From Elusimicrobiota bacterium (GTDB lineage Bacteria; Elusimicrobiota; UBA8919), in assembly GCA_028718185.1 (NCBI GenBank), contig JAQUMH010000006.1:1-64000 (forward strand): a stretch of DNA of 64,000 nucleotides, read 5' to 3'. Made by a program: the position numbers and the translations under genes. This document shows positions 6,495-29,540 of the stretch, in pieces. The number at the start of each line of letters is the position of its first letter. Positions within the stretch are counted from its first letter, which is position 1. Under the pieces are notes generated by a model. It was not told the DNA's origin and searched no databases. It saw nothing but the letters and a program-made list of their open reading frames with translations.

Positions 6495-6622
6495 TTTGAA
6501 AAAAATAAAACAACAAGTTTCCATAAATTACAATAAGTTTCGCAAAGCATATTTCTGTCAATTTCTATTTCCCTAATTTCAGAATCTACATTACACAGTC
6601 TTAAAAGAGGGGCGCTTAAAAA

Positions 6623-12757: not shown

Positions 12758-12791
12758 AAAAACATTTAGTAATATGATATTAAAAAGCTAG

Positions 12792-12821
12792 AAATGCCCA
12801 GCATAGTGGGCTTTTTATTTT
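12792..12821 (+). terminator. Rho-independent terminator after lepA
   Basis: GCCCA (12796-12800), loop GCATAG, TGGGC (12807-12811), then TTTTTATTTTT. It lies 40 bases after lepA and closes the ptsH-ptsI-lepA unit ahead of the sigma-54 region. Confidence 0.75.
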
Positions 12822-12938
12822 TATAAATGATATATAACTATTGATATATTGCACAGAATAATGTAAAATAAGTAAAATTAACCAAGAATTTTTCATTAAG
12901 GTGCATTGTTATGTTATATTCTTACATAATTTTTTGCT

Positions 12939-14024
12939 ATGAATTTAAAAATCAGACAAAAACAAGGTATTTTTTTTAAACAAAAGTTTAATATTACTGC
13001 TAAAATACGTTTGTCTGAAATTATAAAACTTCCTGAAAATAAATACGCTCAGTTAGTTGAAGATGTTGAAAAGGGTTTCTTATTTAAAAAGTTGTCGTCG
13101 TTTTATTATAAAAATCAAAGAATAATAAGTAATAGAAGATTCTCAAAAACTGATTTTTCTTCAGATTTCTTAGAATTTAATGAAAAAGCTAACATAAACA
13201 GAACAGATAATGTTGAAGTTGAATCGTTAATTTCTAAACGGAAAGAAACAGTTTCTATTATAAAAAAATTAGGAATAGCTAATTTAAAAAAATACTTTCT
13301 ATATAATAATGTTGAAAAATCTACTAGAGAAATAAGCTCAATATGTAAAATATCTGAAAAGGATGTAAAAAAAATATATAATTTAATCAATGAATTATCT
13401 GTTCATAATGAATTTTATTATCCTTCAGCGATACAAGGTAATTTAAATATAAATTATTATAAAATTGCTAAAATTGACGATGATGGTTCAAAAGGTTTTA
13501 TTATAAATTATTTTTCTCCAAAATACAGTCAGGGGAAATATATAATTAATTATTCCAATCTTTCAAAATTAAAAAAGCAAGGTACATTTTCAAAAGAAGA
13601 ATTAAAAGAAATAGATAGATTATTAGAAAATCTAAACCTTATTAATAATAAAAAGATGACTATTTTTCAAGTGATAAAAAAAATAACTGAAAAACAAAAA
13701 GGTTATTTATTGTCAGGTGATAAAAAGGATATAATACCGTATACTCAGATGGAATTGGCAAAAGAAATAAAGTCAGATAATAGTTTAGTTAGCCGTGCAA
13801 TTGCTAACAGAAGTATTGAGACTCCACAAAACAAGGAAGTACCATTGCAATTTTTCTTTCCGAGTAAGAAAGATATAAGAAAAGACATAATCAAAAAAAT
13901 AATTGAAAATGAAAAAAATAATCACTTGACTGATAGGGAAATTAAATGTATACTGAAAAACGAGTTTAAAATTGATGTTTCTCGCAGAACAGTTGCGGTA
14001 TGTAGAAAAGAATCAGGAGAATAA
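12939..14024 (+). CDS. rpoN: Divergent RNA polymerase sigma-54 factor
   Basis: 361 aa, shorter than the usual 430-500. The N-terminal IRLSEIIKLPENKYAQL aligns with region I, and the helical middle is poorly conserved. Near residue 270 comes TQMELAKEIKSDNSLVSRAI, then RSIETPQNKEVPLQFFFPS, the HTH and core pattern of RpoN. The RpoN box is SRRTVAVCRK (348-357), where the consensus is ARRTVAKYRE; the Lys-Tyr pair is lost. It would direct polymerase to GG/GC promoters such as those at 15538 and 25654. The gene is lysine/asparagine-rich and starts 35 bases before an NtrC-type activator, which supports the call. Confidence 0.78.
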   Translation: MNLKIRQKQGIFFKQKFNITAKIRLSEIIKLPENKYAQLVEDVEKGFLFKKLSSFYYKNQRIISNRRFSKTDFSSDFLEFNEKANINRTDNVEVESLISKRKETVSIIKKLGIANLKKYFLYNNVEKSTREISSICKISEKDVKKIYNLINELSVHNEFYYPSAIQGNLNINYYKIAKIDDDGSKGFIINYFSPKYSQGKYIINYSNLSKLKKQGTFSKEELKEIDRLLENLNLINNKKMTIFQVIKKITEKQKGYLLSGDKKDIIPYTQMELAKEIKSDNSLVSRAIANRSIETPQNKEVPLQFFFPSKKDIRKDIIKKIIENEKNNHLTDREIKCILKNEFKIDVSRRTVAVCRKESGE

Positions 14025-14058
14025 AAACTAATTATTTTAAAGAAACATAGGTGGTTAT

Positions 14059-15459
14059 ATGACAGAAGTTAAATCTACTATTTTAGTAGTTGATGATGAC
14101 CTAAGTGTAATAGAATCTTATAAGATTTTATTAGAGGATAAATATAATGTTTTAATTGCCAACGATGGTACCAAGGCATTGGAAATATTACAAAAGGAAT
14201 CTGTTAACTTAGTTCTTCTGGATATACTAATGCCTGGTATGGACGGGTTAGAAACATTAAAAAAGATAAAAGAAGATAATGAAGTTGAGGTAATAATGAT
14301 TACAGCAGTAAGGACTGTCCGTACCGCAATTCAGGCAGTGAAATTAGGCGCATATGATTATATCACCAAACCATTTGATATAGATGATTTATTGGCAACT
14401 ATAAATAAGGTTTTAGAAAAGCAGGGTTTAAACAGGCAGATAATTTATTTAAAGGCAGCGCTTAAAAATTATATATATGAAAATATGGTTGGGAAAAGTG
14501 AAAAAATAACCAAAGTGTTTAATATGATTTCAGAAGTCAGCAATAATGATTCAACAATTTTAATTACAGGGGAAAGTGGTACCGGAAAGGAACTCATAGC
14601 AAGGGCAATCCATAATAAGGGCTCAAGAAAAGATAAACCTTTTATTGCTGTTGATTGTGCTTCTATACCGGAAAATTTAGTAGAAAGCGAATTATTCGGT
14701 CATGAAAAAGGAGCATTTACAGATGCTACTACCCAAAGAATAGGTAGATTTGAGTTATCTAGTGGAGGTACTCTTTTTCTTGATGAAATCGGGAATTTAA
14801 AGTTAGATATACAAAGTAAAATATTGAGAGTGTTAGAAGAACGTGAAATCCAGAGGATAGGCAGTAGCAAAATTATAAAAATTGATTCAAGGATAATTTC
14901 TGCTACGAATGTAGATTTAAAAAAAGCTGTAAAAGCAGGACAATTTCGTGAGGATTTATATTATAGATTAAACGTTATACCGATTTTTGCACCGGCGTTA
15001 CGGGAGAGAAAAGAAGACATACCGATGTTAGTGGATTATTTCATTGACTTATATAATAAGGAATTTAATAAAAAAGTTTCCGGGGTATCAGAAGAAGCAG
15101 TAGCTTATCTTAGTAATTATGACTGGCCTGGAAATGTTAGAGAATTACGTAATGTAATGGAAAGATTAATTGCATTAAGTAAAGAAAATATTATATCTCA
15201 TAAAAGATTACCTGTAGATATTTTGCTTTCACAAGAAATAAAACCCGAGGACTATTATGCTACTGTTTCACTAAAAGCAGCAAGGTATGAATTTGAGAAA
15301 CAATTTGTATTAAAAGTTTTAGAAAAAGCTAATTGGAATCAGACAAAAGCAGCAAAACTTTTAGGTATTCACAGAAACGCGATTATCTTCAAAATAGAAG
15401 CTTTTAACCTACGCCCCATTATCAAACAAGCCAAATTAGACCTGCGTTCCAAAAAATAG
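14059..15459 (+). CDS. NtrC-family sigma-54-dependent response regulator
   Basis: 466 aa in three domains. The receiver (1-120) has the acidic pocket DDD at 12-14 and phospho-acceptor Asp55. The AAA+ domain (about 140-375) has Walker A GESGTGKE (171-178), GGTLFLDEIG and the sensor/R-finger region FREDLYYRLNV. A Fis-type HTH (about 420-455) includes NQTKAAKLLGIHRNA. The sigma-54 contact loop is GAFTDA (218-223) where the consensus is GAFTGA; this variant occurs in other activators. Linked to the divergent RpoN. It probably binds the palindromes at 15463 and 25569. RBS AGGTGG. Confidence 0.93.
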   Translation: MTEVKSTILVVDDDLSVIESYKILLEDKYNVLIANDGTKALEILQKESVNLVLLDILMPGMDGLETLKKIKEDNEVEVIMITAVRTVRTAIQAVKLGAYDYITKPFDIDDLLATINKVLEKQGLNRQIIYLKAALKNYIYENMVGKSEKITKVFNMISEVSNNDSTILITGESGTGKELIARAIHNKGSRKDKPFIAVDCASIPENLVESELFGHEKGAFTDATTQRIGRFELSSGGTLFLDEIGNLKLDIQSKILRVLEEREIQRIGSSKIIKIDSRIISATNVDLKKAVKAGQFREDLYYRLNVIPIFAPALRERKEDIPMLVDYFIDLYNKEFNKKVSGVSEEAVAYLSNYDWPGNVRELRNVMERLIALSKENIISHKRLPVDILLSQEIKPEDYYATVSLKAARYEFEKQFVLKVLEKANWNQTKAAKLLGIHRNAIIFKIEAFNLRPIIKQAKLDLRSKK

Positions 15460-15462
15460 ATT

Positions 15463-15500
15463 GCACAATAAATTGTATACCATTGCACAAATAAAGATAC
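15463..15500 (+). promoter_or_regulatory. Candidate enhancer sites for the sigma-54 activator
   Basis: GCACAA-TAAA-TTGTAT (15463-15478) is an imperfect dyad of form GCACAA-N4-TTGTGC. A second GCACAA half-site lies at 15485-15490. They sit about 50-90 bases upstream of the sigma-54 core at 15538. A perfect version of the dyad lies upstream of the other sigma-54 promoter. Confidence 0.6.
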
Positions 15501-15537
15501 ACTTTTAATTCAAATTCAAATAGGATTGATTTATTTG

Positions 15538-15554
15538 TTGGCACATAATTTGCA
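15538..15554 (+). promoter_or_regulatory. Sigma-54 promoter of the ketoacyl synthase operon
   Basis: TTGGCACATAATTTGCA matches the -24/-12 consensus TTGGCAC-N5-TTGCA at every fixed base. It is 67 bases before the GTG of the ketoacyl synthase, leaving room for the start site near 15566 and for AAGGAGG at 15607. The gene for the activator ends 79 bases upstream. Confidence 0.9.
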
Positions 15555-15620
15555 CCTCTTTCTATTAGACACCACTGACATCACTTTTGGATTTTTAAGA
15601 TTTTTGAAGGAGGTAAATTA

Positions 15621-16952
15621 GTGTCAAATCGTGCAGTAATAACAGGAGTCGGTATAATTGCCCCGAATGGTATTGGCAAAGATAGATATTGGAAAGCAAT
15701 TACATCAGGTGAATCAGGTATAAAAAAAATAAGTAGTTTTGATACCTCGCAATATCCAACCAAAATAGCCGGTGAAGTTTCAGACTTTAATCCGGCAAAT
15801 TATATGGAAAAAAGAAAGTCAAAGATGTTGAGCAGGTTTACCCAATTTGCTTTAGTGGCTACTAAAATGGCAATAGAGGATTCGGCATTAAAACCCGAGA
15901 ATGAAGATCCTTATAGAATGGGGATTTCTTTTGGTAATACACTGGGAGGAGAAGAGATTGATGAGGAGCAGCATATTGTCTTTCATGAAAAGGGTTGGGA
16001 AAATCTTGATCCCTTTTCTTCTGCAAGAGCAAGCAACAATTATGCAGTAGGAGTAATAGCATCAGAATTAAAGATTAAAGGACCAAACATTACTATATCC
16101 ACAGGATGTACTTCTGCGTTAAGTGCTATTGCGTATGCGCTTGATTTAATAAAGTCAGGTAAGACAGATATTGTTATTGCAGGAGGCAGTGAAGCGCCTT
16201 TAGTTCCGTTTGCATTTAATGCATTTTGTGCAGCAGGCGTTCTTTCAAGAAGAAATGAAAAACCGGAAAAAGTAAGCAGACCTTTTGAAAAAAATAGAGA
16301 TGGCTATGTATTAGCCGAAGGATGTGGTATTCTAATAATAGAAAGTTTGGAGCATGCCTTAAAAAGAAATGCTGACATTTATGCTGAAGTAGCAAGTTAT
16401 GGAGTTACCAACGATGGTTTTAGCATGTTAAGAATGGAACCGATGGGTAACGAAGTAGCAAAAGCAATTGAACTGGCATTAAAAAGCGGAAATTTAGAAG
16501 CAGGAGATATAGATTACATAAATGCACATGGAAGTTCTTCTCCGTTATCAGATAAAAGGGAGACGAATGCGATTAAACTATCTTTAGGTGAACATGCCTA
16601 TAAAACACCGATTAGTTCAATAAAATCAATGGTAGGACAACCATTAGCAGCAACCGGAGGAATTCAAGCCATTACTACGGCTTTAGCAATAAAAAACAGA
16701 TGTATCCCTCCGACAATAAACTATGAAGAAGAAGATCCGGATTGTGACCTTAATTACACTCCCAATAAATCACAAACTTGTGAGATAGATGCTGCATTAA
16801 TAAATGGTTTTGGACTTGGAGGTAACAATATTTCAATGATTTTGAAAAAATATGATAGTATCCCTGAAAGTGTTCCCAGAAATATTGTTACAGATTTCAA
16901 AGTAGAGATACCTCAATCATATAGTAATTTCCAAAATGCACAAAGTCGGTAA
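15621..16952 (+). CDS. Beta-ketoacyl-ACP synthase II-like condensing enzyme with altered triad
   Basis: 443 aa, slightly longer than FabF (about 412) by a C-terminal extension. The thiolase fold is clear. Active-site Cys163 lies in STGCTSA and His303 in NAHGSSSPLSD, at the same numbers as in E. coli FabF. The second catalytic histidine (FabF His340, in GHxLGA) is Gln340 here (SMVGQPLAATGG); the lysine in IKSM is kept. Loss of this histidine may change decarboxylation of malonyl-ACP. It may be a specialised or polyketide-type synthase, not the housekeeping FabF. GTG start with AAGGAGG; first gene after the sigma-54 promoter. Confidence 0.88.
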   Translation: MSNRAVITGVGIIAPNGIGKDRYWKAITSGESGIKKISSFDTSQYPTKIAGEVSDFNPANYMEKRKSKMLSRFTQFALVATKMAIEDSALKPENEDPYRMGISFGNTLGGEEIDEEQHIVFHEKGWENLDPFSSARASNNYAVGVIASELKIKGPNITISTGCTSALSAIAYALDLIKSGKTDIVIAGGSEAPLVPFAFNAFCAAGVLSRRNEKPEKVSRPFEKNRDGYVLAEGCGILIIESLEHALKRNADIYAEVASYGVTNDGFSMLRMEPMGNEVAKAIELALKSGNLEAGDIDYINAHGSSSPLSDKRETNAIKLSLGEHAYKTPISSIKSMVGQPLAATGGIQAITTALAIKNRCIPPTINYEEEDPDCDLNYTPNKSQTCEIDAALINGFGLGGNNISMILKKYDSIPESVPRNIVTDFKVEIPQSYSNFQNAQSR

Positions 16953-17038
16953 TATTTAAAATTATTGACAGTTTTTAATAAAAGGAGTAAAATTGACAGA
17001 AGATAGAATCTAAATTTTAGAAGTAGAAAAGGGGGAAA

Positions 17039-17989
17039 ATGAAAAAAGTATTTTTGTTTTTAAGTTTAATTGGGGTTGTATTGATTTTGAGTTTTAAAGA
17101 TGTTTTTGCCGGTGCGCCATGGGGTGAGGTTTTGCCGAAAGGGCGTTCTTGGCTCAAGGTGTATTATGTAAGCACCTGGGCATCTGAAAAATATAATGAA
17201 GATAGAAAAATAGTACCTTTAGTTACCGGATTTAAATCTGATGCCAGAGAAAATGTGCCGGCAATGGAGTATGGTTATGGATTAACAGATGATTTATCTG
17301 TTGGAACAATTATCCCTTATACTTATCGCTCTTATAAACTTGAGCCACAAACTATACCTGAACAGAAAGCATCCGGTATCGGGGATGTTAAATTAGGTGG
17401 GCAATATAGGTATTATAAGACGGATATTCTAACGTTAACTTTTAGAAGTACAGTAAAATTACCTACAGGTAAAGTTGATGACCCGAACGATAGGGAAGAT
17501 ATTGATATAGGAACCGGACAGACTTATATAGAATTTACCAATTATGTGGATTATTATCTGTTAGAAAAAACATGGGTAGCAAGTGGGATGTTAAGATATA
17601 ACTTGCAGCTTGAAGGAGAATATGATGCATCTAATGCACAGATAGCTCGTCTAGGCAATACCTACAAAAAGAAAATCGGTGATGAATTATGGTTAGCGGC
17701 CGGTTTAGAGAGACGGGATATCGTTGCTCAGGGATTATCAGCGAGTATGAGGATAGAAGAAAGAATTGATATGAAGGATGACTATACTTCAAATTCTCAA
17801 ACATATGATGAGTCAAAAGAAAAAAATACTTCCGGAGACTATTTATTTCTTCAGCCGGAAATAAAGTACAGCGCATATAAAATTTATAAAATCCCGGTAC
17901 GAGTTTATAGCAATTACAGAATACCCGTATCCGGCAAAAACAACTATGTTACAAACCGCCTTGAAATAGGAATAGACATTTTCTTTTAA
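17039..17989 (+). CDS. Outer-membrane beta-barrel of the phenol-pathway (PF13557-like) type
   Basis: 316 aa. A signal peptide of about 24 residues ends near VFAGAP. The mature part alternates in beta-barrel style and has the family look GIGDVKLGGQYRYY and STVKLPTGKVDDPNDRED. It ends in IDIFF, a terminal-Phe signal for barrel assembly. Such proteins are thought to pass small, often hydrophobic compounds, but the substrate is unknown. It follows the ketoacyl synthase by 86 bases with RBS GGGGG, so it could export or import that enzyme's product. Confidence 0.75.
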   Translation: MKKVFLFLSLIGVVLILSFKDVFAGAPWGEVLPKGRSWLKVYYVSTWASEKYNEDRKIVPLVTGFKSDARENVPAMEYGYGLTDDLSVGTIIPYTYRSYKLEPQTIPEQKASGIGDVKLGGQYRYYKTDILTLTFRSTVKLPTGKVDDPNDREDIDIGTGQTYIEFTNYVDYYLLEKTWVASGMLRYNLQLEGEYDASNAQIARLGNTYKKKIGDELWLAAGLERRDIVAQGLSASMRIEERIDMKDDYTSNSQTYDESKEKNTSGDYLFLQPEIKYSAYKIYKIPVRVYSNYRIPVSGKNNYVTNRLEIGIDIFF

Positions 17990-18011
17990 TCTTTTATTTA
18001 GTTTTTAATAA

Positions 18012-18040
18012 TTGTAGTCGCACGCCCTTGGCGTGCCATA
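18012..18040. repeat. TGTAG-type palindrome
   Basis: TGTAGTCG followed by CACGCC-CTT-GGCGTG (18021-18035). It lies between the barrel gene and the first radical SAM gene. It has no T run and is likely a REP-like copy, not a terminator. Confidence 0.75.
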
Positions 18041-18098
18041 TTATACGTGCTACTGCTCCGTAATTATGTAGTAGATTCTCCTTGACAGTCATATTTTT

Positions 18099-19463
18099 AT
18101 GAAAGTATTATTGATTCAACCACCACTCAACCCCAATATTATCGGCGCAGGAACCGGGTTTCTTACAGAACCACTTGCTTTGGAAATACTGGCTGCTTCA
18201 ATACCCCATCATGATGTTCATATTCTCGATATGAGAATTGATAATAATTTAACTAAAACATTAGATTCTTTCCGACCGGATATTGTCGGTATTACAAGCT
18301 TAACACCAGACGTCTATATTGCCAAAGAAATACTTTTCAAAATTAAAAAATACAATCAACAAATATTAACAGTAATAGGCGGTCATCATGCTACTATGAT
18401 ACCGGAAGATTTTAAAGAAAGCTATATTGATGTAGTTGTAATAGGAGAGGGGGAGGTAACTTTCAAAGAACTCGTAGATGCATTTGAAAAAAAAGATATT
18501 TTTTCAAATATAAAAGGAATTGCTTTTAAAAATGGAGAGAAAGATTTATTTTTTACGACTCCTCGGGAGTTGATATCTAATATGGACGATATGCCTGTTC
18601 CAAACAGAAGTTTAACAGCTAATCATCGTAATGAATATTTTCGTGGTTCCTGGCGACCTGTTGCTTCAATAATGACTTCTAAAGGCTGTCCTTTCAGATG
18701 TAATTTCTGTGCTTTATGGAAAATAAATAATGGGAAATATTTTGTACGTAGTCCCGAATCAGTTGTTGATGAGTTGGAAAACATCAAAGAACATTTTATA
18801 GATTTTGCAGAAGATAATGCTCTTCACGATATACCAAGAGCAGAAAAAATATACGAATTAATAAAAAAACGAGGAATTAAAAAAACGTATAAATTATATG
18901 CTCGGTCAGATACTATTGTCAGACATCCTGAAATTGTGGAAAAATGGAAAGAAATCGGAATGGAACTGGTCCTTATCGGATTGGAATCATTCAAAGACGA
19001 CGAACTCAAAGAGTTAAATAAACATAATACTATTAGTAACAATGAAAAAGCAGTTAGTATTTTACAAGAAAATGGGGTAGAAATAGCGGCCTATTTTATA
19101 ATCAATCCAAATTATATAAAAGAAGATTTTGACAGATTAGCGGAATATGTACAAAAACTTAACCTGAAACAACCGATTTTTACTGTTTTAACACCGCTAC
19201 CCGGTACCGATTTCTACAAAGAAAAATATAATGAGTTAACAACTCACAACTATCAAATGTATGATTTTGTCCATTCTGTTTTACCGACAAAATTACCCAC
19301 TAAGGATTTCTACAAATGTTTAATAGAATTATACCGTAAAACATATGCTTCAGCAATAACAACCATGGGCGCAAATAAAATTATGGCTCAGTTAACAAAC
19401 ATCGGGGACGGTTCTGGTTATTTGGGATATAAGAGTTCAAGTATAATAAAGGAGTATAGTTAA
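18099..19463 (+). CDS. B12-binding-domain radical SAM protein
   Basis: 454 aa. The N-terminal Rossmann-like cobalamin domain (1-140) has IGGHHATMIPEDF and VVIGEGEVTF. The radical SAM motif is C197-PFR-C-NF-C (Cys197, 201, 204) in SKGCPFRCNFC. A short C-terminal helical domain follows. Such enzymes methylate unactivated carbons or rearrange skeletons; the substrate is unknown. The last 21 codons and the stop lie inside the left end of a transposase element (from 19401), so the original C-terminus may have been replaced. The stop overlaps the transposase start (TAATG). Confidence 0.85.
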   Translation: MKVLLIQPPLNPNIIGAGTGFLTEPLALEILAASIPHHDVHILDMRIDNNLTKTLDSFRPDIVGITSLTPDVYIAKEILFKIKKYNQQILTVIGGHHATMIPEDFKESYIDVVVIGEGEVTFKELVDAFEKKDIFSNIKGIAFKNGEKDLFFTTPRELISNMDDMPVPNRSLTANHRNEYFRGSWRPVASIMTSKGCPFRCNFCALWKINNGKYFVRSPESVVDELENIKEHFIDFAEDNALHDIPRAEKIYELIKKRGIKKTYKLYARSDTIVRHPEIVEKWKEIGMELVLIGLESFKDDELKELNKHNTISNNEKAVSILQENGVEIAAYFIINPNYIKEDFDRLAEYVQKLNLKQPIFTVLTPLPGTDFYKEKYNELTTHNYQMYDFVHSVLPTKLPTKDFYKCLIELYRKTYASAITTMGANKIMAQLTNIGDGSGYLGYKSSSIIKEYS

Positions 19464-20167
19464 TGCCGAGGCGAGCACGATTTACAATTGAAGATGGAAC
19501 ATATCATGTAATGATACGAGGAAACAATCGTAATCCGATATTTCAAAATAGCGAAGATTTTAGTTATTTTATGGAGTTAATTAAAGATAATAAAGAGAAA
19601 TACAATTTGAAGGTGTATCATTATGTGTTGATGAATAATCATATCCATATAATAATAAAATCAGTCATAGGAAAGAATTTGAGTGAAGCAATGAAGCGGA
19701 TGATGGTAAGTTATATGAGATATTATCGTAAGTTGTATAAAGGTATAGGACATTTTTTCCAGGATAGATTCAAGAGTTTTTTGATACAAGATGGAAAATA
19801 TCTGCTTGAATGTGGTAGGTATGTAGAACTGAATCCCGTAAGTGCCGGTATTGTGAAATATCCTAATGAATACAAATGGAGCAGTTATAAAGTATATGCA
19901 GAGGGGGAGAAATCAAATTTAATAGATATTAATCCTGAATATATGGGATTAAGTGAGGACATAGATAATAGAAAAAAGAGATACAAAGAATATATAAACG
20001 ATGGTTTGTTTGAGCAACGGACAGAAGAACGATTTTTCAAAGAAGGGGCATATGGTTCTGTAGAATTTAAAGAGATATTGAAAAAAAGAGGACTAAAACC
20101 AATTTGGTCACATGGTGGGTGTTCTCCTAAAGTGGGAAAGAGTTAAATAACCAGAACCGTCCCCGAT
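19401..20167 (+). mobile_element. Y1 transposase element bounded by perfect 23-bp inverted repeats
   Basis: Positions 19401-19423 (core GGGGACGGTTCTGG) and 20145-20167 (core CCAGAACCGTCCCC) are perfect reverse complements over 23 bases. They enclose the RAYT-type transposase. The GGGGACGGTTCT core is often seen beside such genes in other bacteria. The left end lies in the 3' end of a radical SAM gene. The right end is 20 bases before the next one, whose RBS AAAGGAG follows directly. No target duplication is evident. Confidence 0.85.
19463..20146 (+). CDS. REP-associated tyrosine transposase (RAYT, Y1 HUH family)
   Basis: 227 aa. It begins PRRARF and has YHVMIRGNNRNPIF, the HUH motif NNHIHIIIK (near residue 65), MVSYMRYYRKLYKGIGHFFQDRFKS and YVELNPVSAGIVK, all typical of RAYTs. 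The family nicks single-stranded DNA at palindromes through a tyrosine. The start codon overlaps the stop of the upstream gene by one base, suggesting translational coupling to the operon. The last codon pair runs into the right inverted repeat. Confidence 0.92.
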   Translation: MPRRARFTIEDGTYHVMIRGNNRNPIFQNSEDFSYFMELIKDNKEKYNLKVYHYVLMNNHIHIIIKSVIGKNLSEAMKRMMVSYMRYYRKLYKGIGHFFQDRFKSFLIQDGKYLLECGRYVELNPVSAGIVKYPNEYKWSSYKVYAEGEKSNLIDINPEYMGLSEDIDNRKKRYKEYINDGLFEQRTEERFFKEGAYGSVEFKEILKKRGLKPIWSHGGCSPKVGKS

Positions 20168-20187
20168 TTTTAAAGGAGATTTGGAAA

Positions 20188-21849
20188 ATGGCAACAAATA
20201 GTTTATTAATAAATTTTGCAGGTTATCCTAATGAACCATTTAACTTTATGCCGGATAATGGGTTAGCCAATTTAGCCGGTGCTTTAATGAGGGAAAACCA
20301 TAAAACAAAAATTTGGGATTGTTCTACTGTAGATGTAGTTGAGAAATTATTTCCCTATGAATACTCTGATGAGTATCGTAATCTATCAAAAAAGATTATG
20401 CAATCTATATCTGCCGGTGATAAGCCTGTCACAAAAGATTTAGATATGTTCTACGATTTAAGTGGAAAAATTGAATCAAGGCAAACCAAAAGTATAAAAG
20501 ATATAGGTAACGAAATTAGCAAATTTGTCAAGAACGGCAACTTTGATTTTATTGGTTTTAAGTTATGGTCTGGAGCAGGTTTTGAAGGTTCAATGATTAT
20601 TGCGGAAGAACTAAAAAAGAACAATCCAAAACTTCCAATTTTTGCAGGAGGTCCTCATGTGGACTGGTTTAATGAAAGGGTGTTTGATGTGACAAATGTC
20701 TTTGATGTCCTCGTATATGGAGAAGGAGAAGAAACTCTTCCTTTACTTGCGAATTATGTTGAGGGAAAAGTGTTATTAAAAGATATACCCAACTTAATAT
20801 ATAAAGAAAACGGTAAAACAATAACTACACCAATGAAGAGAGTTGATGATTTAAATAAATTGGCATTGCCGGTATACGATGACGATGTATATCTTGCTAT
20901 GAAAGATAACCAGAAAATAAAGATTTTTTTAATTGATGAAAGTCGGGGATGTCCTAATAGCTGTAATTTTTGTATTCATCCATTAAAAAGCGGCGGACGT
21001 TGGCGGACAGTAGATGCAAAAAAGGTTGTAGATAGAATAGAATCATTAATTCATAAATATGGTGTACACGGATTTAGATTTGCCGGTTCAAACCCACCTC
21101 CGAATCACAGAAGAAATATAGCCAGTGAATTACTAAAAAGAGGGATTAATATAGTTTATTCTTCGTATGCTCATATTGGGAACTCAACTGAACAAGAATA
21201 TAAAGAATTAAAAAAATCAGGTTGTTGTGCTCTTGCTTTTGGAGTAGAATCTGGTTCTCAAGAAATATTAAGTAAGAGTTTAAATAAAAAAACAAAAGTA
21301 GAACAAATAGATGATACTATTGAAAAATGCAGGAAAGCAGGTATCTATGCTATAGCCAGCATAATTATGCCGGCACCTGGAGAAACAGAAGCAACTAAAA
21401 ATGAAACATTAAGTCGTCTGCTAAAAATAAGACCTGATTCAACAGTGGTATTTTTTCCTATAATTACATTAGGAACAGAATGGGAGAAAAATATGGATAA
21501 ATTCGGTTTTAAAATAAATAAACCAAAAGAATTTTTTGAAAAGGCTATGACTTATAAAACCAATACTCTTTGCCCGCCACCTTTATGGCCGAAAGTTGAT
21601 GATTTTTTACTTGATAGAAAATCATTTGAAAAATTAGCAGAAGAAACAGCCAATTTTGTGAAACTTCTATCACAAAACAACATGACAACGCAACTTTTTG
21701 ACCAGGTATTTCTTGTCGCAGAGTTTTCTGGAATGAGTCCAAAAGAGTTTGGAGATAAAAGCCACAATTATTTACATACTGGCGACCGCAACGCATTATA
21801 TAAAATGGTTTCAGAAATAAATGAGAATGTTAAAATTTATAAAAATTAA
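20188..21849 (+). CDS. B12-binding-domain radical SAM protein
   Basis: 553 aa. The cobalamin-binding domain (about 1-210) ends in FAGGPHVDW and VLVYGEGEETLPLLANY. The cluster motif is DESRGCPNSCNFCIHP (Cys255, 259, 262), followed by GFRFAGSNPPP and FGVESGSQEI, typical of this class. The extra N-terminal insert (about 55-110) makes it longer than its neighbours. RBS AAAGGAG. Substrate unknown; the sigma-54 operon places it with the ketoacyl synthase. Confidence 0.85.
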   Translation: MATNSLLINFAGYPNEPFNFMPDNGLANLAGALMRENHKTKIWDCSTVDVVEKLFPYEYSDEYRNLSKKIMQSISAGDKPVTKDLDMFYDLSGKIESRQTKSIKDIGNEISKFVKNGNFDFIGFKLWSGAGFEGSMIIAEELKKNNPKLPIFAGGPHVDWFNERVFDVTNVFDVLVYGEGEETLPLLANYVEGKVLLKDIPNLIYKENGKTITTPMKRVDDLNKLALPVYDDDVYLAMKDNQKIKIFLIDESRGCPNSCNFCIHPLKSGGRWRTVDAKKVVDRIESLIHKYGVHGFRFAGSNPPPNHRRNIASELLKRGINIVYSSYAHIGNSTEQEYKELKKSGCCALAFGVESGSQEILSKSLNKKTKVEQIDDTIEKCRKAGIYAIASIIMPAPGETEATKNETLSRLLKIRPDSTVVFFPIITLGTEWEKNMDKFGFKINKPKEFFEKAMTYKTNTLCPPPLWPKVDDFLLDRKSFEKLAEETANFVKLLSQNNMTTQLFDQVFLVAEFSGMSPKEFGDKSHNYLHTGDRNALYKMVSEINENVKIYKN

Positions 21850-21888
21850 ATAAGTAATATAAAATTTTTATAATTGGAGGATATTATT

Positions 21889-23268
21889 ATGAAAATAACT
21901 TTGATAGCACCACGTCAAATTGTAGAAGATGGAAATAGTGAAAAGTGGGGTACTGAATTTTCTTCTTTTCTATTTGGGAAAAAGAAATATTACTCTGCGC
22001 CTTTAGCTTTAGCAACTATAGCAGCATTGACTCCACCTAATATAGAAGTAAATATAATTGATGAAAATATTGAACAGATAGATTTTGATATAGATACTAA
22101 TTTGGTAGGAATTACAGCATCTACATTTTTAGCTCCACGAGCATATGAAATAGCAGATGAATTTCGAAAAAGAAACATAAAAGTTATTTTGGGAGGGATC
22201 CATCCTTCAATGTTACCAGATGAAGCAATTCAACATGCCGATACTGTTGTAATAGGGGAAGCAGAAGAGGTTTGGAGCAATCTTATTGATGATTGCAAAA
22301 AAAACAAGCTAAAACAATTTTATCAATCTACTCAGAAACCGGATTTGTCAAAACAGCCTATACCAAGGTGGGATTTGTTGAAGAACAATTCATATAACCT
22401 TCATACTATACAAACAACTCGTGGATGTCCTTTTGATTGCGAATTTTGTTCTGTCAAAGTATTTTGGGGTCCACAATATCGTTATAAATCTATAGAAAAA
22501 GTTTTAAAGGAAGTTGAAACAGCTATGATGTTGGAAAAAAAACGGATATTTTTTGTAGATGATAATTTTATTGGTAATAAAAAAAGAACTAAAGAGCTGC
22601 TTAATGTTTTGATTCCATTAAAAATATCTTATTATATTCAGGCATCAGTGGATTTAGCTAATGATGAAGAATTATTGGAATTACTTGCAAAAAGCGGATG
22701 TAATAGTGTATTAATTGGTTTTGAGTCTATATCTGGAAAGGTTATTGAACAAATGAATAAAAGTTATTCAAATAAAGTAGAAGGGTATGCACAGAGCATT
22801 AAAAAAATACAATCATTTGGTATAGGAATTCAAGGTTCTTTTATTTTCGGATACGATTCCGATGACGTATCCGTATTTGAAAAAACAGTAAATTTTGTTC
22901 AGAATGCCGAATTAGAAATTGCATCTCTCCACGTACTTACACCTTTCCCGGGTACAAAATTATCCGAACGATTAAATAGTGAAGGCCGTATTTTACATAA
23001 AGATTGGAATAAATATGATGGAGAAAATGTGTGTTTTCGTCCAAAACTAATGGCTCCCGAGGTATTACAAAATGGAGTAGTATGGGCACAACAGAAAGTC
23101 TATACATTCGAAAACATTTTTACAAGATTGAAAGCTATATGGGGTTTATGGAATGAAAAATCAGTAAGATTAGACGACAGAATCTCACCCATGATAAGGA
23201 ACCTTAGTTCTAATCATAGAGCATATACTTATTCATTGGCTAAACAACCGCAACATATTGAAAAATAA
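21889..23268 (+). CDS. B12-binding-domain radical SAM protein
   Basis: 459 aa from ATG 21889; GGAGG (21876-21880) decides this start over the upstream TTG. The N-terminal domain has LGGIHPSMLPDEAIQHAD and VVIGEAEEVW. The motif TTRGCPFDCEFCSVKVFWG holds Cys180, 184 and 187. The VFWG continuation and the long C-terminal region resemble the hopanoid-methylase/DUF4070-like branch, but this assignment is tentative. It ends 5 bases before the sensor kinase start, so the two are surely co-expressed. Confidence 0.85.
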   Translation: MKITLIAPRQIVEDGNSEKWGTEFSSFLFGKKKYYSAPLALATIAALTPPNIEVNIIDENIEQIDFDIDTNLVGITASTFLAPRAYEIADEFRKRNIKVILGGIHPSMLPDEAIQHADTVVIGEAEEVWSNLIDDCKKNKLKQFYQSTQKPDLSKQPIPRWDLLKNNSYNLHTIQTTRGCPFDCEFCSVKVFWGPQYRYKSIEKVLKEVETAMMLEKKRIFFVDDNFIGNKKRTKELLNVLIPLKISYYIQASVDLANDEELLELLAKSGCNSVLIGFESISGKVIEQMNKSYSNKVEGYAQSIKKIQSFGIGIQGSFIFGYDSDDVSVFEKTVNFVQNAELEIASLHVLTPFPGTKLSERLNSEGRILHKDWNKYDGENVCFRPKLMAPEVLQNGVVWAQQKVYTFENIFTRLKAIWGLWNEKSVRLDDRISPMIRNLSSNHRAYTYSLAKQPQHIEK

Positions 23269-23273
23269 GGATA

Positions 23274-25481
23274 ATGAAAAATAATTTTAGTAAAGTATTA
23301 CTGTTTTTATTATTAATACCGTTTGTGTTAGGAATTATTATTGTGATAAAGCATAATCCTCACGCTATAAGTTCTCTTATTGCCGCATTATTCAGTCTAT
23401 TTTTAACTTTCTTTGTTTATTCAAAAGATAAAAAAAATCCAATAAATATCATTTTCGCCTGTTTTTGTTTTAGCATGGGTATTTTTGAACTTGCTTTATT
23501 TGGACTCTATATTGTTCATAATATTTCTATTCTTAATTATTGGATTAAGTTTTTTAGAATAGGTTATGTTATGGTTGCACCATGTTTCCTTCATTTTGTG
23601 TTAAGGCTTGTTAAAAATGAAAATAAAACTAAAGAAAATGTACTTCGTTTTGTTTATGGAGTAGCAATAGTATTTTATGTAATTAATTGGTTTGGATTTT
23701 TTGAAAAAGGATTTATTAAAAAAGTAGAATTTAAGTATTCTCCGGAAGTAACACAAGTTTACTTTGTTTTCTTAGGATATATTATAATAGTCACAGCATA
23801 TTCATTATATGAAGTTTTCAAAGGATATAAAAAATCTAATTCAATCACAACTCGCAATCAACTGAAATATGTTTTATTAGCAGGTATAGTTGCTATAATT
23901 TTAGGTTATACTAACGCTTTGTTATATTTTGGTATGAAAATATATCCTCTTGGTTGGTTGGGTCCTATTGCTTTTACTAGTATCATTGCATATGCTATTT
24001 TAAAACATCAATTAATGGATATAAACGTTGTAATTCGTAAAGGTGTTGTTTATGGAACTTTAACCCTTTCTATTATAGGGATATATGCTTTAACGGTTGG
24101 CATTTTTACAAGTATTTTTGATATGAATAATATAACTCAAAATAAGCCATGGTTGATAATAATTAATGGTCTTACTGGTATGATTGTCGCAGTAATGTTC
24201 CTCCCTATAAAAAACAAAATTCAGTCTATTGTTGATAAACTTTTCTTTAAAGACAAATATGATTATTATGAAACTTTAAAAACTCTTAGTGGTGATTTAA
24301 CTACCATTTTTGAATTAAATAAATTGTTGGATTTACTTATAACTAAAGTAACGGAAACTATGCATATAGATAAAGGGTATATTATGTTATTCGATACTGA
24401 TAAAGATAGGTTTTTAGTAAAATTCTCAAAAGGTATAGATTCTAAAACACTAAAACAAATTAAACTTAATAAGACCGATACTCTTGTTGTTTGGTTAGAA
24501 AAAAATAAAACTATATTGATACTTGATGAATCTATAAATAATTTTGAAGAATTAAAAGCTCAAAATATATATTTGAGTATACCATTAATGAGCAAGAATA
24601 AATTAATAGGTATTTTTAATCTTGGTACTAAGTTATCCGAGGATACATATACAACCGAAGATTTAAAATTACTGACCACTATATCAAATCAGGCGGCAAT
24701 TGCAATTGAGAATGCACAGCTTTCTACAGAAATGAGAGTTTTAGAAAAAAGTCTTCTTCATACAGATAAACTTGCTGCACTCGGTGTTTTAGCATCAAGT
24801 ATAACACACGAAGTAAAAAACCCTTTAGTTTTAGTAAAAACATTTTGTCAATTGGTGCCCCGAAGGTACAATGAAATGGATTTTATTAATAGATTTAGTG
24901 ATGCTGTGCCTAAGGCGATAGAAAGAATGGAACATACTCTTGGGCAGTTGCTTGATTTTGGCAAATTGCCGGAATTAGGTTTTGGAGAGATTAATGTTAA
25001 CAATATTTTAGATAACTTACTGGATTTATTACATTATGAGATGTTTAAGCAGAATGTTAATATAATTAGACAGTATGATGACAAATTACCATTAATTATG
25101 GCTGCCGAAGAACAAATAAAGCAGGTTTTTATGAATCTTATACTCAATGCTATTCAGGCTATGCCAAATGGAGGAACGATAACGATAACGACAGAAGCGG
25201 AAAGTGGGAAGTGGGAAGTGGGAAGTGGAAATCTGGAAGCAAAAGAAGGTTCAACTACACCCTATGTTAACATTTCTGTTAAGGATAATGGATGCGGTAT
25301 ATCTGACGAATTTATGAGTAAAATATTCAAGCCATTCTATACTACTAAGGTAAGAGGAAGCGGATTAGGTCTTTCAATCTCCAGCAGAATAATTAAAGAG
25401 CACAAGGGTACAATTGAATTGAGTAGCAAATTAAACGAAGGGACCATCTTTACAGTAAAACTTCCTGTCAAGCAAATCTAA
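23274..25481 (+). CDS. Membrane sensor histidine kinase (7TM-GAF-HisKA-HATPase)
   Basis: 735 aa. Residues 1-310 hold about eight to nine hydrophobic helices in the HisKA_7TM manner. A GAF domain (about 340-485) includes ISNQAAIAIENAQL. The H-box is SSITHEVKNP with His512. The ATP domain has NAIQAMPNGG, DNGCGI and GSGLGLSI. Overall shape resembles PrsK-type kinases, whose partner regulators are sigma-54 activators; pairing with the regulator at 14059 is inferred. The loop after GGTITIT contains a GTGGGAA tandem repeat in frame. Last gene of the operon starting at 15621. Confidence 0.9.
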   Translation: MKNNFSKVLLFLLLIPFVLGIIIVIKHNPHAISSLIAALFSLFLTFFVYSKDKKNPINIIFACFCFSMGIFELALFGLYIVHNISILNYWIKFFRIGYVMVAPCFLHFVLRLVKNENKTKENVLRFVYGVAIVFYVINWFGFFEKGFIKKVEFKYSPEVTQVYFVFLGYIIIVTAYSLYEVFKGYKKSNSITTRNQLKYVLLAGIVAIILGYTNALLYFGMKIYPLGWLGPIAFTSIIAYAILKHQLMDINVVIRKGVVYGTLTLSIIGIYALTVGIFTSIFDMNNITQNKPWLIIINGLTGMIVAVMFLPIKNKIQSIVDKLFFKDKYDYYETLKTLSGDLTTIFELNKLLDLLITKVTETMHIDKGYIMLFDTDKDRFLVKFSKGIDSKTLKQIKLNKTDTLVVWLEKNKTILILDESINNFEELKAQNIYLSIPLMSKNKLIGIFNLGTKLSEDTYTTEDLKLLTTISNQAAIAIENAQLSTEMRVLEKSLLHTDKLAALGVLASSITHEVKNPLVLVKTFCQLVPRRYNEMDFINRFSDAVPKAIERMEHTLGQLLDFGKLPELGFGEINVNNILDNLLDLLHYEMFKQNVNIIRQYDDKLPLIMAAEEQIKQVFMNLILNAIQAMPNGGTITITTEAESGKWEVGSGNLEAKEGSTTPYVNISVKDNGCGISDEFMSKIFKPFYTTKVRGSGLGLSISSRIIKEHKGTIELSSKLNEGTIFTVKLPVKQI

Positions 25482-25568
25482 AAATAATACTTATCCCAGT
25501 TTATTTTACAGCTATTATATAAAATATTGGTTTAATATCTCAAATATAAACGATTTATTTTTTATAAA

Positions 25569-25608
25569 GCACAATATGTTGTGCAACAACTGTGCACTTT
25601 TTGTGCAC
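25569..25608 (+). promoter_or_regulatory. Enhancer-like palindrome and half-sites
   Basis: GCACAATATGTTGTGC (25569-25584) is a perfect 6-4-6 dyad. Two more TGTGCAC half-sites follow at 25591-25597 and 25602-25608. The sites lie about 50-90 bases upstream of the sigma-54 core, the same placement as at 15463. They probably bind the NtrC-type regulator. Confidence 0.7.
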
Positions 25609-25653
25609 TTTTTCTAAAAATATCAAAATAAATGCGTTTATTTTAGTTATTTT

Positions 25654-25670
25654 TTGGCATATTTTTTGCA
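25654..25670 (+). promoter_or_regulatory. Sigma-54 promoter of the signalling island
   Basis: TTGGCATATTTTTTGCA has -24 GG and -12 GC elements with correct spacing; only C to T at the seventh base departs from the best consensus. The predicted start site near 25682 leaves a leader of about 40 bases with AAAAGGAG before ATG 25723. It shows that translation cannot start at the TTG inside the promoter. Confidence 0.87.
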
Positions 25671-25722
25671 GTATAGATTAGTAGAAGGACAAAAATATGG
25701 AAATCTTGATAAAAGGAGATTT

Positions 25723-26271
25723 ATGAAAGAGAAAATATTGTTGGTTGATGATGATAATGGGGTTTTGGAGTCTGTTACGGAGTCGTTAAGTAGTAATTAT
25801 TTTATTACTACTGCACGTAGTGGAGAGGAAGCTATTGAAATTATTAAGAAAGAAAACCAAAATCTGGTTATCTTAGATGTGAAATTAGCCGGTATTGATG
25901 GCATTGAAACATTGGGAATTATTAAAAAAATTGATAGTACTATACCGGTTATAATGTTATCTGCAGTAGACACAATAAATACCATTACCAGGGCTATTAA
26001 ATTAGGCGCCTGTAATTATTTTGATAAACCTTTTGATATTGATGAGTTACAAAATGCTGTTAGCGAAGCTCTGGATAAAGGGCGTAGTAATTTACAATCT
26101 AAAAACCAAACATTGCCGGTAGATATTGAAGTATTTATTAAGAATAGCGTGAATGATATTTTAACTGAAGAAATGCAGCTGGAGAATGCATTAAAAAAGT
26201 TTAAGGATAAATATACAAATTTTGTTTTTAGTAAATTTATGGATAAATTTGAAAAAAAACATCACAATTGA
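25723..26271 (+). CDS. Response regulator, receiver plus C-terminal helical tail
   Basis: 182 aa from ATG 25723. The receiver (1-120) has LLVDDDNG, the phospho-Asp in LVILDVKLAGIDG and KPFDIDEL. The remaining 60 residues are charged helices with no recognisable DNA-binding or enzyme domain. The receiver resembles that of the NtrC-type protein at 14059. First gene behind the second sigma-54 promoter, so its level should follow that regulator's activity. Confidence 0.88.
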   Translation: MKEKILLVDDDNGVLESVTESLSSNYFITTARSGEEAIEIIKKENQNLVILDVKLAGIDGIETLGIIKKIDSTIPVIMLSAVDTINTITRAIKLGACNYFDKPFDIDELQNAVSEALDKGRSNLQSKNQTLPVDIEVFIKNSVNDILTEEMQLENALKKFKDKYTNFVFSKFMDKFEKKHHN

Positions 26272-26272
26272 A

Positions 26273-26371
26273 CACATTACATGCTTGCCTGCTGACCTGC
26301 CTCTGACTGCCGGTCAGGCATGTGTTTCTATACTTGCCTGTTGTCAAGCAGGTAGGCAAGCATGTAATGTG
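26273..26371. repeat. Large cruciform-forming inverted repeat
   Basis: An 18-base arm at 26273-26290 (CACATTACATGCTTGCCT) is a perfect complement of 26354-26371. Inside are smaller hairpins, including CTGACTGCCGGTCAG (26303-26317) and a CTTGCCTG/CAGGTAGGCAAG pairing. It lies directly after a stop codon and has no T run. It may be a mobile palindrome or an attenuator between the regulator and the MerR-like gene. Confidence 0.85.
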
Positions 26372-26398
26372 TGAGATATTTAACAATATGAGGTTAAA

Positions 26399-27004
26399 AT
26401 GGCAAACGTAAAAATTTCCGAAGTTGCACAAGCGGCAAAAGTTTTACCAAGTACAATCAGGCATTATACAGATTTAGGACTTTTGCAAATTTCCGAGAGA
26501 ACAGGTGGCGGACAGCGACTTTATAATGAAGAACAAACACTTTCAAAACTTGCTAAAATAAAACATCTTTTTTTTCGTGGACATTCACTTTCTCAAATAA
26601 AAGATATTTTAACAAATGGTATTAAAAAACGGATGCTTGTAATAGATGATGATCCCGATGTCCCGGAGTTAATCAAAACAATTTTAGCAGAAGACCAGTG
26701 GGAAATAAAACATGCTATGGACGGGTTTGAGGCTGGGAGATTTTTAGTAGATTATTTCCCTGATTTAGTTACTCTTGATTTGGTTATGCCGGGGATGGAT
26801 GGTTTTAAAGTATGTCAGAATATACGAAAAGATCCAATTACTAAAAATATAAAGATTATTTCAATTACAGCATATTCTGCCCCTGAGCATAAAAATAAAA
26901 TTTTAAATATGGGTGCTGACGGTTATCTTCAAAAACCATTTACTTCTGAGCAACTAAAGCTGAAAATAAAAGAAATTATGGATAAAGTTGAGGTGGCAAA
27001 ATGA
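26399..27004 (+). CDS. MerR-type HTH fused to a C-terminal receiver
   Basis: 201 aa. Residues 1-72 form a MerR-like winged helix (KISEVAQAAKVLPSTIRHYTD is split by the helix turn; GGGQRLYN marks the wing). Residues 76-197 are a receiver with VIDDDPDV, phospho-Asp127 in VTLDLVMPGMDG and KPFTSEQL. The order is the reverse of classical response regulators. The stop overlaps the next kinase by ATGA, so that kinase is the likely partner. Target sites unknown. Confidence 0.88.
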   Translation: MANVKISEVAQAAKVLPSTIRHYTDLGLLQISERTGGGQRLYNEEQTLSKLAKIKHLFFRGHSLSQIKDILTNGIKKRMLVIDDDPDVPELIKTILAEDQWEIKHAMDGFEAGRFLVDYFPDLVTLDLVMPGMDGFKVCQNIRKDPITKNIKIISITAYSAPEHKNKILNMGADGYLQKPFTSEQLKLKIKEIMDKVEVAK

Positions 27005-28305
27005 AATTAACACTTAAACATCTTTTTAGTTTTTTTGCTAATTCGAAAACTCACAAGGAACCTATTTATCTGTTTGATGTTGATAAAACAAATCAGGCAG
27101 ACAATAAGCAGTTCCCGCGATTGTTGGAGAAAACAATTGTGGAATTAAACGATACTCAAAAACAATTACAAACTACCAGGGAACAACTTATCCAATCCCA
27201 GAAACTAAATTGTATGGGGCAATTGATTGCAGGTGTAGTACATGAATTAAATAACCCCTTAACTATAATGCTTGGCAATATACAACTTATAAGGCTGGAA
27301 GATTGTTCCGAATCGCTGAAAAAGGAATTAGAGACAGTGGCAGGCAACGCACGGCGGTGTAAAAAGATAGTTGATAACTTACTAAATGCAATTAGGAAAA
27401 ACAAAAGTGAGAAAAAAAAGGTTTATATTAATCATCTTATTGAGCAGACTTTAGAAATGTTAGAGTATGAGTTTAGGGTTGAAAATATTAAGTTAGAAAG
27501 AAATCTGTCTCCCGAAATACCGGTTACTTATACAGATGAACATCAAATACAGCAGGTATTGATAAATATTTTGTGCAATGCATATCAGGCACTTAAAAAC
27601 AGAAATAATAAACTTATAAGAGTAGAGACTGTGTTTAAAGAAAATAAAATAGTTGTTTCGATTTATAATAATGGACCGCATATTCCCGATGAAAATCTAA
27701 AAAATATATTCGAACCGTTTTTCACGACTAAGTCAGATGGAGAAGGCACAGGTTTAGGGTTGTTTATAAGTAAAGGTATCGTTGAATTTCAGAAAGGGAA
27801 AATGTGGGTAAATAACCAATCGTTTCCCAGTGGGGTTATCTTTGTAATAGAATTACCGGTAATTATACCGGAAATAAGTTCTTTTTCTGAAGAATTTCAG
27901 TCAATACCGGAATCTTACGGGAAAAATATTTTATTAATTGATTATGAAACAAGTATTTTGGATCTTAATTGTAAAATATTGAAAAAAAAGAAACATAAAG
28001 TTACTACAGTTAATAATATGGATGAGGTATTAAGAGAACTCGAAGCAAAACCATATGATTTAATTATCTCTGATACAAGAAAACCTGATATGGATGGGTT
28101 ACAATTATATAAATATTTGGGGAAAAAATTTCCGCACTTAAAACAAAACTTGATTATTATTACAGGATATATTACTGATGAAGTCAGTAAAAAGTTTTTA
28201 ATAGATAACAATATACCATTTATTATAAAGCCGTACGAGGTAAAAGAATTCGAACATATGGTCAATAAGGTCCTAAATCAGCAAACAAAAGATTTACAAT
28301 CATAA
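27001..28305 (+). CDS. Soluble hybrid histidine kinase with C-terminal receiver
   Basis: 434 aa, no membrane segment. A coiled coil (about 40-65) leads to the H-box [10 protein letters not shown] with His81. The ATP domain (about 150-285) has NAYQALKN and [11 protein letters not shown]-terminal receiver (about 300-425) has the acceptor region [12 protein letters not shown] and IKPYEVKEF. No sensor domain besides the coiled coil, so input may come by protein contact. ATGA overlap with the MerR-receiver gene. Confidence 0.9.
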
Positions 28306-28317
28306 GATTCTCTTTTT

Positions 28318-28347
28318 TTGTCATTCCGTACTTGATACGGAATCTGT
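28318..28347. repeat. GTCATTCC palindromic repeat
   Basis: GTCATTCCGTA and its partner TACGGAAT form a hairpin with loop CTTGA. It belongs to the CATTCCCG/CGGGAAT family found at 39121, 46743, 49659, 52959 and 60540. It sits 4 bases before the first possible start of the next gene. Confidence 0.7.
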
Positions 28348-28351
28348 CGGT

Positions 28352-28732
28352 ATGTTAGATAAAGTTATGAAAAAAGTATTTATTATAGAAGACGACAAAT
28401 ACTTAGCCGAAATAATCAAAGAAGAACTTGAAGAATCCGGCTACGAGGTCAAAGTAGCATTGTCGGGTAATAGTGCCATTCAGTTATTACAAGCTACAAA
28501 ACCGGATTTAGTTATATTGGACATGAGATTACCTGATATAGATGGATTAATAATATTAGAATCAATAGGTATAAAATATAGTGAAGCTCAGGTAATAGTT
28601 TACACAGCATATGAAGAATATAAAAAACAACCTCCTTCCTTAAATGAAAAGAAATTCTGCAACTTCCTTCTTAAACCGCTTCCAATGGAAACCATTGTAT
28701 CAGAAGTAAAAAGAACAATTGGCGAACCTTAG
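28352..28732 (+). CDS. Single-domain response regulator
   Basis: 126 aa (121 if begun at ATG 28367, which gives the classical MKKVFIIEDD start). Acidic pocket EDD, phospho-Asp in LVILDMRLPDIDG and the conserved Lys in LLKPLPME. No output domain, so it probably works in a phosphorelay with the neighbouring hybrid kinase. Neither start has a clear Shine-Dalgarno. Confidence 0.87.
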   Translation: MLDKVMKKVFIIEDDKYLAEIIKEELEESGYEVKVALSGNSAIQLLQATKPDLVILDMRLPDIDGLIILESIGIKYSEAQVIVYTAYEEYKKQPPSLNEKKFCNFLLKPLPMETIVSEVKRTIGEP

Positions 28733-28824
28733 TTAATAATAAAATATTTAGTGATTTCAAGTATAAAAGTTAACTAAGTAAAAACAACGGCAATCATTAT
28801 AAGAGTCAAAGAAAAATATTTCGC

Positions 28825-28853
28825 TTGACAAGAGCAATAATTTACTCTATACT
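28825..28853 (+). promoter_or_regulatory. Strong sigma-70 promoter
   Basis: TTGACA (28825-28830), 17-base spacer, TATACT (28848-28853). This is the best sigma-70 match in the island. It starts a new unit with a leader of about 50 bases and AGGAG before ATG 28910. Confidence 0.8.
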
Positions 28854-28909
28854 TATATTAGGTTTATTGGGATAATAGGGATATATGGATTTTGCATGAA
28901 AGGAGCTAT

Positions 28910-29473: not shown

Positions 29474-29540
29474 TAAATGGACAAACTATGAAAAAATATT
29501 ACATTTGCAAACGAGAAATAGGTTCTAAGCGAGGTCTGAA

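Follow-up and report, generated by a model that had tools for sequence, protein, structure and literature searches.

A conserved, apparently undescribed operon joining a variant FabF-like ketosynthase, a B12-binding radical SAM enzyme and a sensor kinase in Elusimicrobiota

We analysed the first 64 kb (the window) of contig JAQUMH010000006.1 of an Elusimicrobiota bacterium (assembly GCA_028718185.1; genome of 3.03 Mb in 27 contigs, called G000 below). Positions 12939-25481 carry, all on the plus strand, genes for an RpoN homologue, a response regulator, a ketosynthase (KS), an exported protein, a first B12-binding radical S-adenosylmethionine enzyme (rSAM1), a transposase, two further enzymes of this type (rSAM2 and rSAM3) and a membrane histidine kinase. 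An initial annotation had proposed a possible undescribed operon from KS to kinase (15621-25481), with a sigma-54 promoter ahead of it. The promoter, KS, three radical SAM enzymes and kinase are all present, the proteins with domain matches, and the gene run stands as listed; that annotation left out the mobile element inserted inside the run and the regulator and divergent RpoN upstream. The functional unit begins upstream of KS, at the RpoN-like gene 12939-14024 and the response regulator 14059-15459. The KS-rSAM-kinase operon is real and conserved, recurring in nine genomes; literature searches found no description of it, and it is apparently undescribed. The features of the locus are as follows.

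12939-14024, plus strand: divergent short RpoN (sigma-54) homologue of 361 aa (Sigma54_DBD, 3.1e-18; rpoN_sigma, 72.9 bits, C-terminal half)
14059-15459, plus strand: sigma-54-activating response regulator, PrsR/AtoC-like, REC-AAA+-Fis helix-turn-helix (HTH) (profile matches, orthologues)
15462-15490, unstranded: putative enhancer (upstream activating sequence, UAS) TGCACAATAAATTGTATA...TGCACA (half-site enrichment; near-identical TGCACAATAAGTTGTGTA at the third genomic site)
15539-15553, plus strand: sigma-54 -24/-12 promoter TGGCACATAATTTGC, TGGCAC-N5-TTGC (0 mismatches to consensus)
15621-16952, plus strand: FabF-like ketosynthase of a separate clade (KS2), Cys163-His303-Lys335-Gln340, Leu400 (ketoacyl-synt, 3.8e-48)
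17039-17989, plus strand: exported protein, probable outer-membrane barrel, accessory (signal peptide, C-terminal Phe)
18099-19463, plus strand: rSAM1, HpnR-like B12-binding radical SAM enzyme, constant member (B12-binding and Radical_SAM domains)
19402-20167, plus strand: mobile element of RAYT (REP-associated tyrosine transposase)/IS200 type with terminal inverted repeats (transposase open reading frame, ORF, 19463-20146: NF047646, 5.3e-21; Y1_Tnp, 2.1e-14)
20188-21849, plus strand: rSAM2, B12-binding radical SAM enzyme, accessory (B12-binding and Radical_SAM domains)
21874-23268, plus strand: rSAM3, B12-binding radical SAM enzyme, accessory (listed start TTG; ATG five codons later)
23274-25481, plus strand: membrane histidine kinase, PrsK-like, seven-transmembrane (7TM)-GAF-HisKA-HATPase (HisKA_7TM, GAF, HisKA and HATPase matches)
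25569-25608, unstranded: second UAS cluster with AGCACAATATGTTGTGCA and repeated TGTGCAC (one of the repeats can also be read as a terminator hairpin)
25654-25670, plus strand: second sigma-54 promoter TTGGCATATTTTTTGCA (one of three strict matches in the genome)
25723-26271, plus strand: response regulator behind the second promoter (Response_reg, 6e-26; ORF listed from 25654, likely start MKEKIL)

Orthologues of rSAM1, 54-75% identical to the G000 copy, occur in nine of the 341 genomes of the phylum (G000 included), spanning eight genera and six families; a tenth match, at 41% identity, lies in a different gene context. KS accompanies rSAM1 at all nine loci (56-75% identity to the G000 KS), and a regulator orthologue (54-71%) stands directly 5' of KS at eight of them, counting G000. 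The kinase closes the unit at all seven loci with sufficient contig (G000, G001, G002, G087, G011, G040 and G149), the contigs of G005 and G067 ending before its position. A divergent RpoN gene lies just upstream at six loci (G000, G002, G005, G087, G011 and G149). Between pairs of genomes the identities of KS, rSAM1 and regulator rise and fall together (r 0.77-0.85), which fits a unit inherited together. Within the KS-to-kinase unit the largest intergenic gap is 109 bp; terminator-like sites were sought in these gaps and none was found, and a clear terminator-like site lies 3' of the kinase. Gene order in relatives had been set beforehand as the test of the operon, and the same order was found in the nine genomes. 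This conservation refutes a chance assembly of an ordinary duplicate FabF and unrelated radical SAM genes in one strain: the KS does exceed the generic FabF subfamily cut-off PRK07314 (452 vs 387 bits), but the shared order, the distinct KS clade and the invariant His-to-Gln change described below make such an origin extremely improbable. The search also covered 384 Omnitrophota genomes, where no KS2-kinase unit was seen in the flanks read and only rSAM1 relatives of 35-37% identity were found.

Across the nine loci KS and rSAM1 are constant, kinase and regulator are nearly so, and the barrel gene, rSAM2 and rSAM3 are accessory. The three radical SAM enzymes do not form a defining set as first proposed, rSAM2 being present at four loci (G000, G002, G087 and G067) and rSAM3 at two (G000 and G067). 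rSAM1 is duplicated in G001, G002 and G005. An ICMT-like membrane methyltransferase is found in G002, G011, G040, G149 and G067, ThiF in G001 and G040, and a HUP-type protein in G001; the ICMT-like and ThiF labels derive partly from alignment or from the start of the sequence, beyond the proteins given a domain scan. The patchy distribution in the phylum and the lineage-variable ICMT-like, ThiF, HUP and rSAM2/3 genes resemble a diversifying natural product family, as would suit a secreted secondary metabolite (an antibiotic or a metal-binding compound) with its own regulator, the kinase sensing nutrient or competitor cues. The near constancy of kinase and regulator, the lack of a conserved transporter or resistance gene and an enhancer common to surface-protein and regulator genes render this explanation unlikely.

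The exported protein at 17039-17989 has no Pfam or PDB match, and its structure model (pLDDT, the predicted local distance difference test score, 28.5) is unusable, so that an outer-membrane barrel, as initially annotated, is only a likely reading of this gene. A homologue (65-71% identity) was found only in G001 among 150 relatives. With the barrel gene at two of nine loci (G000 and G001), the data do not support export of the product as its general role.

Profile searches identify the transposase ORF 19463-20146 as a REP-associated tyrosine (Y1) transposase. The ORF is framed by inverted arms of about 20 matching bases that contain GGGGACGGTTCT, at 19404 and, in reverse, at 20164, and in the alignment the C-terminal residues of rSAM1 are unlike all relatives from the start of the left arm onward. 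The transposase is thus an insertion: the native rSAM1 tail has been replaced by a RAYT/IS200-type element, which is best treated as riding in the operon and not as a functional member. The GGGGACGGTTCT repeat is also present at the corresponding place in G002 (L107:14541), and G005 carries a different Y1 transposase behind its second rSAM1 copy (L108:14372-15376).

A sigma-54 site with 0-2 mismatches precedes KS at eight of nine loci (shuffle p 0-0.02 each). Upstream of the nine KS genes, GCACA/TGTGC half-sites number 18, against 4.2 expected in shuffles. A -24/-12 promoter with an upstream enhancer is conserved at eight of nine loci, with activator and RpoN genes adjacent. The strict pattern TTGGCAYN5TTGCA occurs three times genome-wide (0 for a reversed-pattern control): before KS, at 25654 and at C1:948316, each with TGCACAA-N4-TTGTGYA-like elements. 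The 25654 promoter precedes the response regulator 25723-26271 and then a run of regulators and kinases; in G001 a relative of this response regulator (50%) is found behind the operon. Downstream of the C1:948316 site are genes for a glycine-rich secreted protein of 1330 residues, an exported protein of 424 residues and a surface protein of 1612 residues. Position and conservation suggest that the regulator 14059-15459 pairs with these three UAS/promoter sites. All nine operon genomes have rpoN, compared with 144 of 341 in the phylum, and the operon-linked rpoN is the only copy found in G087 and G149.

The run at 25654-32273 consists of single-domain response regulators, MerR-type HTH-receiver fusions and kinases, and two of its regulators have relatives behind the operon in G001. 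The region of the third site (G000:C1:938001-948332) encodes one giant protein with three near-identical glycine-rich repeats and another whose C-terminal tail resembles a sorting domain of the FlgD/type IX secretion system type. Short divergent RpoN paralogues (~350-400 aa) are present phylum-wide, with up to five per genome, and many RpoN matches of genus g30 carry in-frame stop codons. An Rfam search of 12000-30000 returned no matches. At the start of the window (426-8722), three GH57-type genes and a TPR protein probably serve glycogen metabolism.

The kinase matches the PrsK profile TIGR02916 over its full length (160 vs 300 bits), as the regulator does the PrsR profile TIGR02915 (407.9 vs 502.6 bits). 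Since both miss the curated cut-offs, the pair is best described as like the PrsK/PrsR system and not a member of it. The PrsK/PrsR pair and RpoN of Proteobacteria have been linked with floc formation and with secreted PEP-CTERM proteins (PMC1569441, PMC9850573); what stimulates PrsK was still an open question when the kinase was named (PMC1569441). The likeness to this XrtA/PEP-CTERM regulatory system extends to -24/-12 promoters with an upstream enhancer and to secreted-protein targets. However, the pair is linked here to KS and B12-binding radical SAM genes and there to exopolysaccharide genes, and the proteins of the third target are, by eye, without a PEP-CTERM end. The kinase of G002 (L107:17049-19997; 982 aa) has a duplicated 7TM-like N-terminal region.

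Operon genomes of the family carry two KS genes each, a canonical fabF beside the acyl carrier protein (ACP) gene and KS2. A tree of 87 KS places the KS2 copies in a clade of their own, apart from canonical FabF (99/100 support). A KS scan of named genomes, by peptide patterns that would miss the 57-75% orthologues and so carry no information on absence elsewhere, gave only KS genes of 39-46% identity, which served for comparison. As in FabF/KAS II, to whose sequence family KS2 belongs, Cys163, His303 and Lys335 are kept in all nine copies. In contrast, position 340 is Gln in 9/9 KS2 and His in 74/74 FabF relatives compared, leaving KS2 without the Cys-His-His catalytic triad of FabF, and the gate residue Phe400 is replaced by Leu, Ala or Val in every copy (Leu in G000). 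The G000 KS also misses the NCBIfam fabF equivalog cut-off (466.5 vs 493.75 bits). In FabF, the carbonyl of the substrate is held in place by His303 and His340, and the F400A change in a FabF yields triacetic acid lactone (PMC7138838); malonyl decarboxylation is said to require His298/His333 of FabB-type enzymes (PMC2649909). With Gln invariably in place of the second catalytic His, and with Phe400 lost in every copy, KS2 is unlikely to act as a normal chain-elongating FabF. It may still catalyse a condensation of another sort, since the PpyS ketosynthase has a Cys-His-Asn arrangement (PMC4578411), and ketosynthases that work as acyltransferases are also known (those of cervimycin, xenocyloin and nonactin, cited in that paper).

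The whole genome has one ACP gene, on another contig beside the canonical fabF. KS2 therefore most likely draws its acyl supply from the general fatty-acid pool. The earlier remark that no ACP, reductase or peptide precursor lies nearby is correct. A cluster for a ribosomally synthesized and post-translationally modified peptide was rejected, because a precursor gene would hardly fit into the gaps; the relatives' loci showed no conserved small ORF of at least 60 aa, and shorter ones outside the unit are possible.

In photopyrone/dialkylresorcinol signalling (PpyS, DarB), a signal between cells is made by a ketosynthase with an altered triad, Cys-His-Asn in the case of PpyS (PMC4578411). PpyS is FabH-derived, whereas KS2 is FabF-derived and accompanied by radical SAM tailoring and a membrane kinase. 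The PpyS product is sensed by a LuxR-type receptor.

rSAM1, rSAM2 and rSAM3 each combine B12-binding and Radical_SAM Pfam domains with a CX3CX2C motif (CPFRCNFC, CPNSCNFC and CPFDCEFC, respectively) and have the class B architecture. rSAM1 shares this architecture with HpnR and the class B methylases CysS, TokK, OxsB-like enzymes, TsrM and MgmA. HpnR is its best named family, although rSAM1 misses the equivalog cut-off (252.4 vs 650 bits). The folds nearest to its predicted model (pLDDT 74) are OxsB, TsrM, AprD4, MgmA, CysS and TokK; the matches are mostly B12-radical SAM methylases, and two were solved with pantetheine-bound substrates. Distant rSAM1 relatives in Omnitrophota lie beside AMP-ligase-like, ThiF-like or rSAM3-like genes, and a 39% relative of rSAM3 adjoins an rSAM1 relative in one Omnitrophota genome. 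The prevalence of methylases among the fold neighbours and the polyketide/AMP-ligase contexts of distant relatives favour C-methylation of an acyl or polyketide chain as the predicted reaction of rSAM1. The modified lipid or polyketide-like product first proposed fits these folds and neighbourhoods insofar as it is a modified acyl or polyketide molecule; its role as a signal is still conjectural.

Further B12-binding enzymes were also seen. The 1.3 Mb genome G051 (L128) has, as read from sequence starts, a type II polyketide-like cluster with an rSAM1-like B12 enzyme, an ACP, a short-chain dehydrogenase/reductase, degenerate and intact KS and a CoA/AMP ligase-like gene. In G000, B12-binding domain matches number 22, many of them clustered, and a second B12-radical SAM cluster lies at 52650-64000 of the window, where glycosyltransferase, epimerase and methyltransferase genes surround it.

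The kinship with HpnR, a C-3 hopanoid methylase, raises the possibility of envelope-lipid remodelling under stress, in which the kinase would sense an outside or membrane condition and a radical-modified (e.g. methylated) lipid would be structural and no signal. Hopanoid methylation itself was rejected for rSAM1, as squalene-hopene cyclase was found in none of the nine operon genomes (controls worked). The ladderane clusters of anammox bacteria likewise place divergent FabF paralogues that have lost a catalytic His beside B12/radical SAM enzymes (PMC2649909). A ladderane cluster was rejected too, since rSAM1, rSAM2 and rSAM3 reach 71.5, 105.5 and 92.1 bits against the 360 bits of TIGR04072; the unit is also without ACP, desaturase and reductase and has a kinase/regulator pair. 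A regulon that takes in surface proteins would suit a remodelled envelope, but three strict promoters genome-wide are few for a stress regulon and no acyltransferase or glycerolipid gene is conserved in the unit. We regard the envelope-lipid explanation as possible, though doubtful.

Taken together, these results seem to support, with moderate confidence, a sigma-54-driven, self-regulated operon that makes a methylated acyl/polyketide-type molecule. In the proposed scheme, the 7TM kinase would phosphorylate the PrsR-like regulator encoded upstream, which would bind the TGCACAA/TTGTGCA elements and open the sigma-54 promoter of the KS-rSAM-kinase unit. As the kinase gene is within the unit that its regulator should switch on, the layout is one of positive feedback. 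The regulator would also open the adjacent response-regulator cascade and the genes for giant secreted proteins elsewhere. KS2 would receive an acyl chain from the only fatty-acid ACP of the cell and would either form a non-standard condensed product, in the manner of the Cys-His-Asn synthases, or transfer the acyl group to another acceptor. The HpnR-like rSAM1 would then modify the product, most likely by C-methylation, with further decoration, depending on the lineage, by rSAM2, rSAM3, the ICMT-like methyltransferase, ThiF or HUP proteins. Feedback of the product on the kinase is most likely, either direct, with the product as an autoinducer, or indirect, with it as an envelope lipid; judged from the gene arrangement, it is a plausible ligand of the kinase.

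Several observations weigh against this self-regulated scheme. The regulator was not seen at the G087 locus, and G149 has no visible sigma-54 site before KS. Sigma-70-like boxes are present inside the unit, two of them good (16965 and 18082), their total count equalling chance. The third target, at C1:948316, begins ~430 bp downstream of its promoter. Finally, kinase identity (32-50%) is the lowest among the constant members, a pattern as compatible with a generic sensor as with a diverging ligand.

The constant KS2 and rSAM1 core with varying decorators fits a lineage-specific signal and its receptor, or a lipid whose state is sensed. More tentatively, a FabF-derived Cys-His-Gln ketosynthase and B12-binding radical SAM enzymes might make a lipid-type autoinducer for a PrsK-like 7TM kinase, driving its own synthesis and that of surface proteins through sigma-54. 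If true, such an autoinducer circuit would be a new class of bacterial signalling, and PrsK-type kinases would gain a first candidate class of ligand. The invariant His-to-Gln change would add a new catalytic variant to the FabF family. In this little-studied lineage the operon couples radical B12 chemistry and a catalytically altered ketosynthase to a dedicated loop of kinase, regulator and sigma-54, and a PrsK-related kinase gene locked to a biosynthetic pathway may supply a concrete ligand pathway for PrsK-type kinases.

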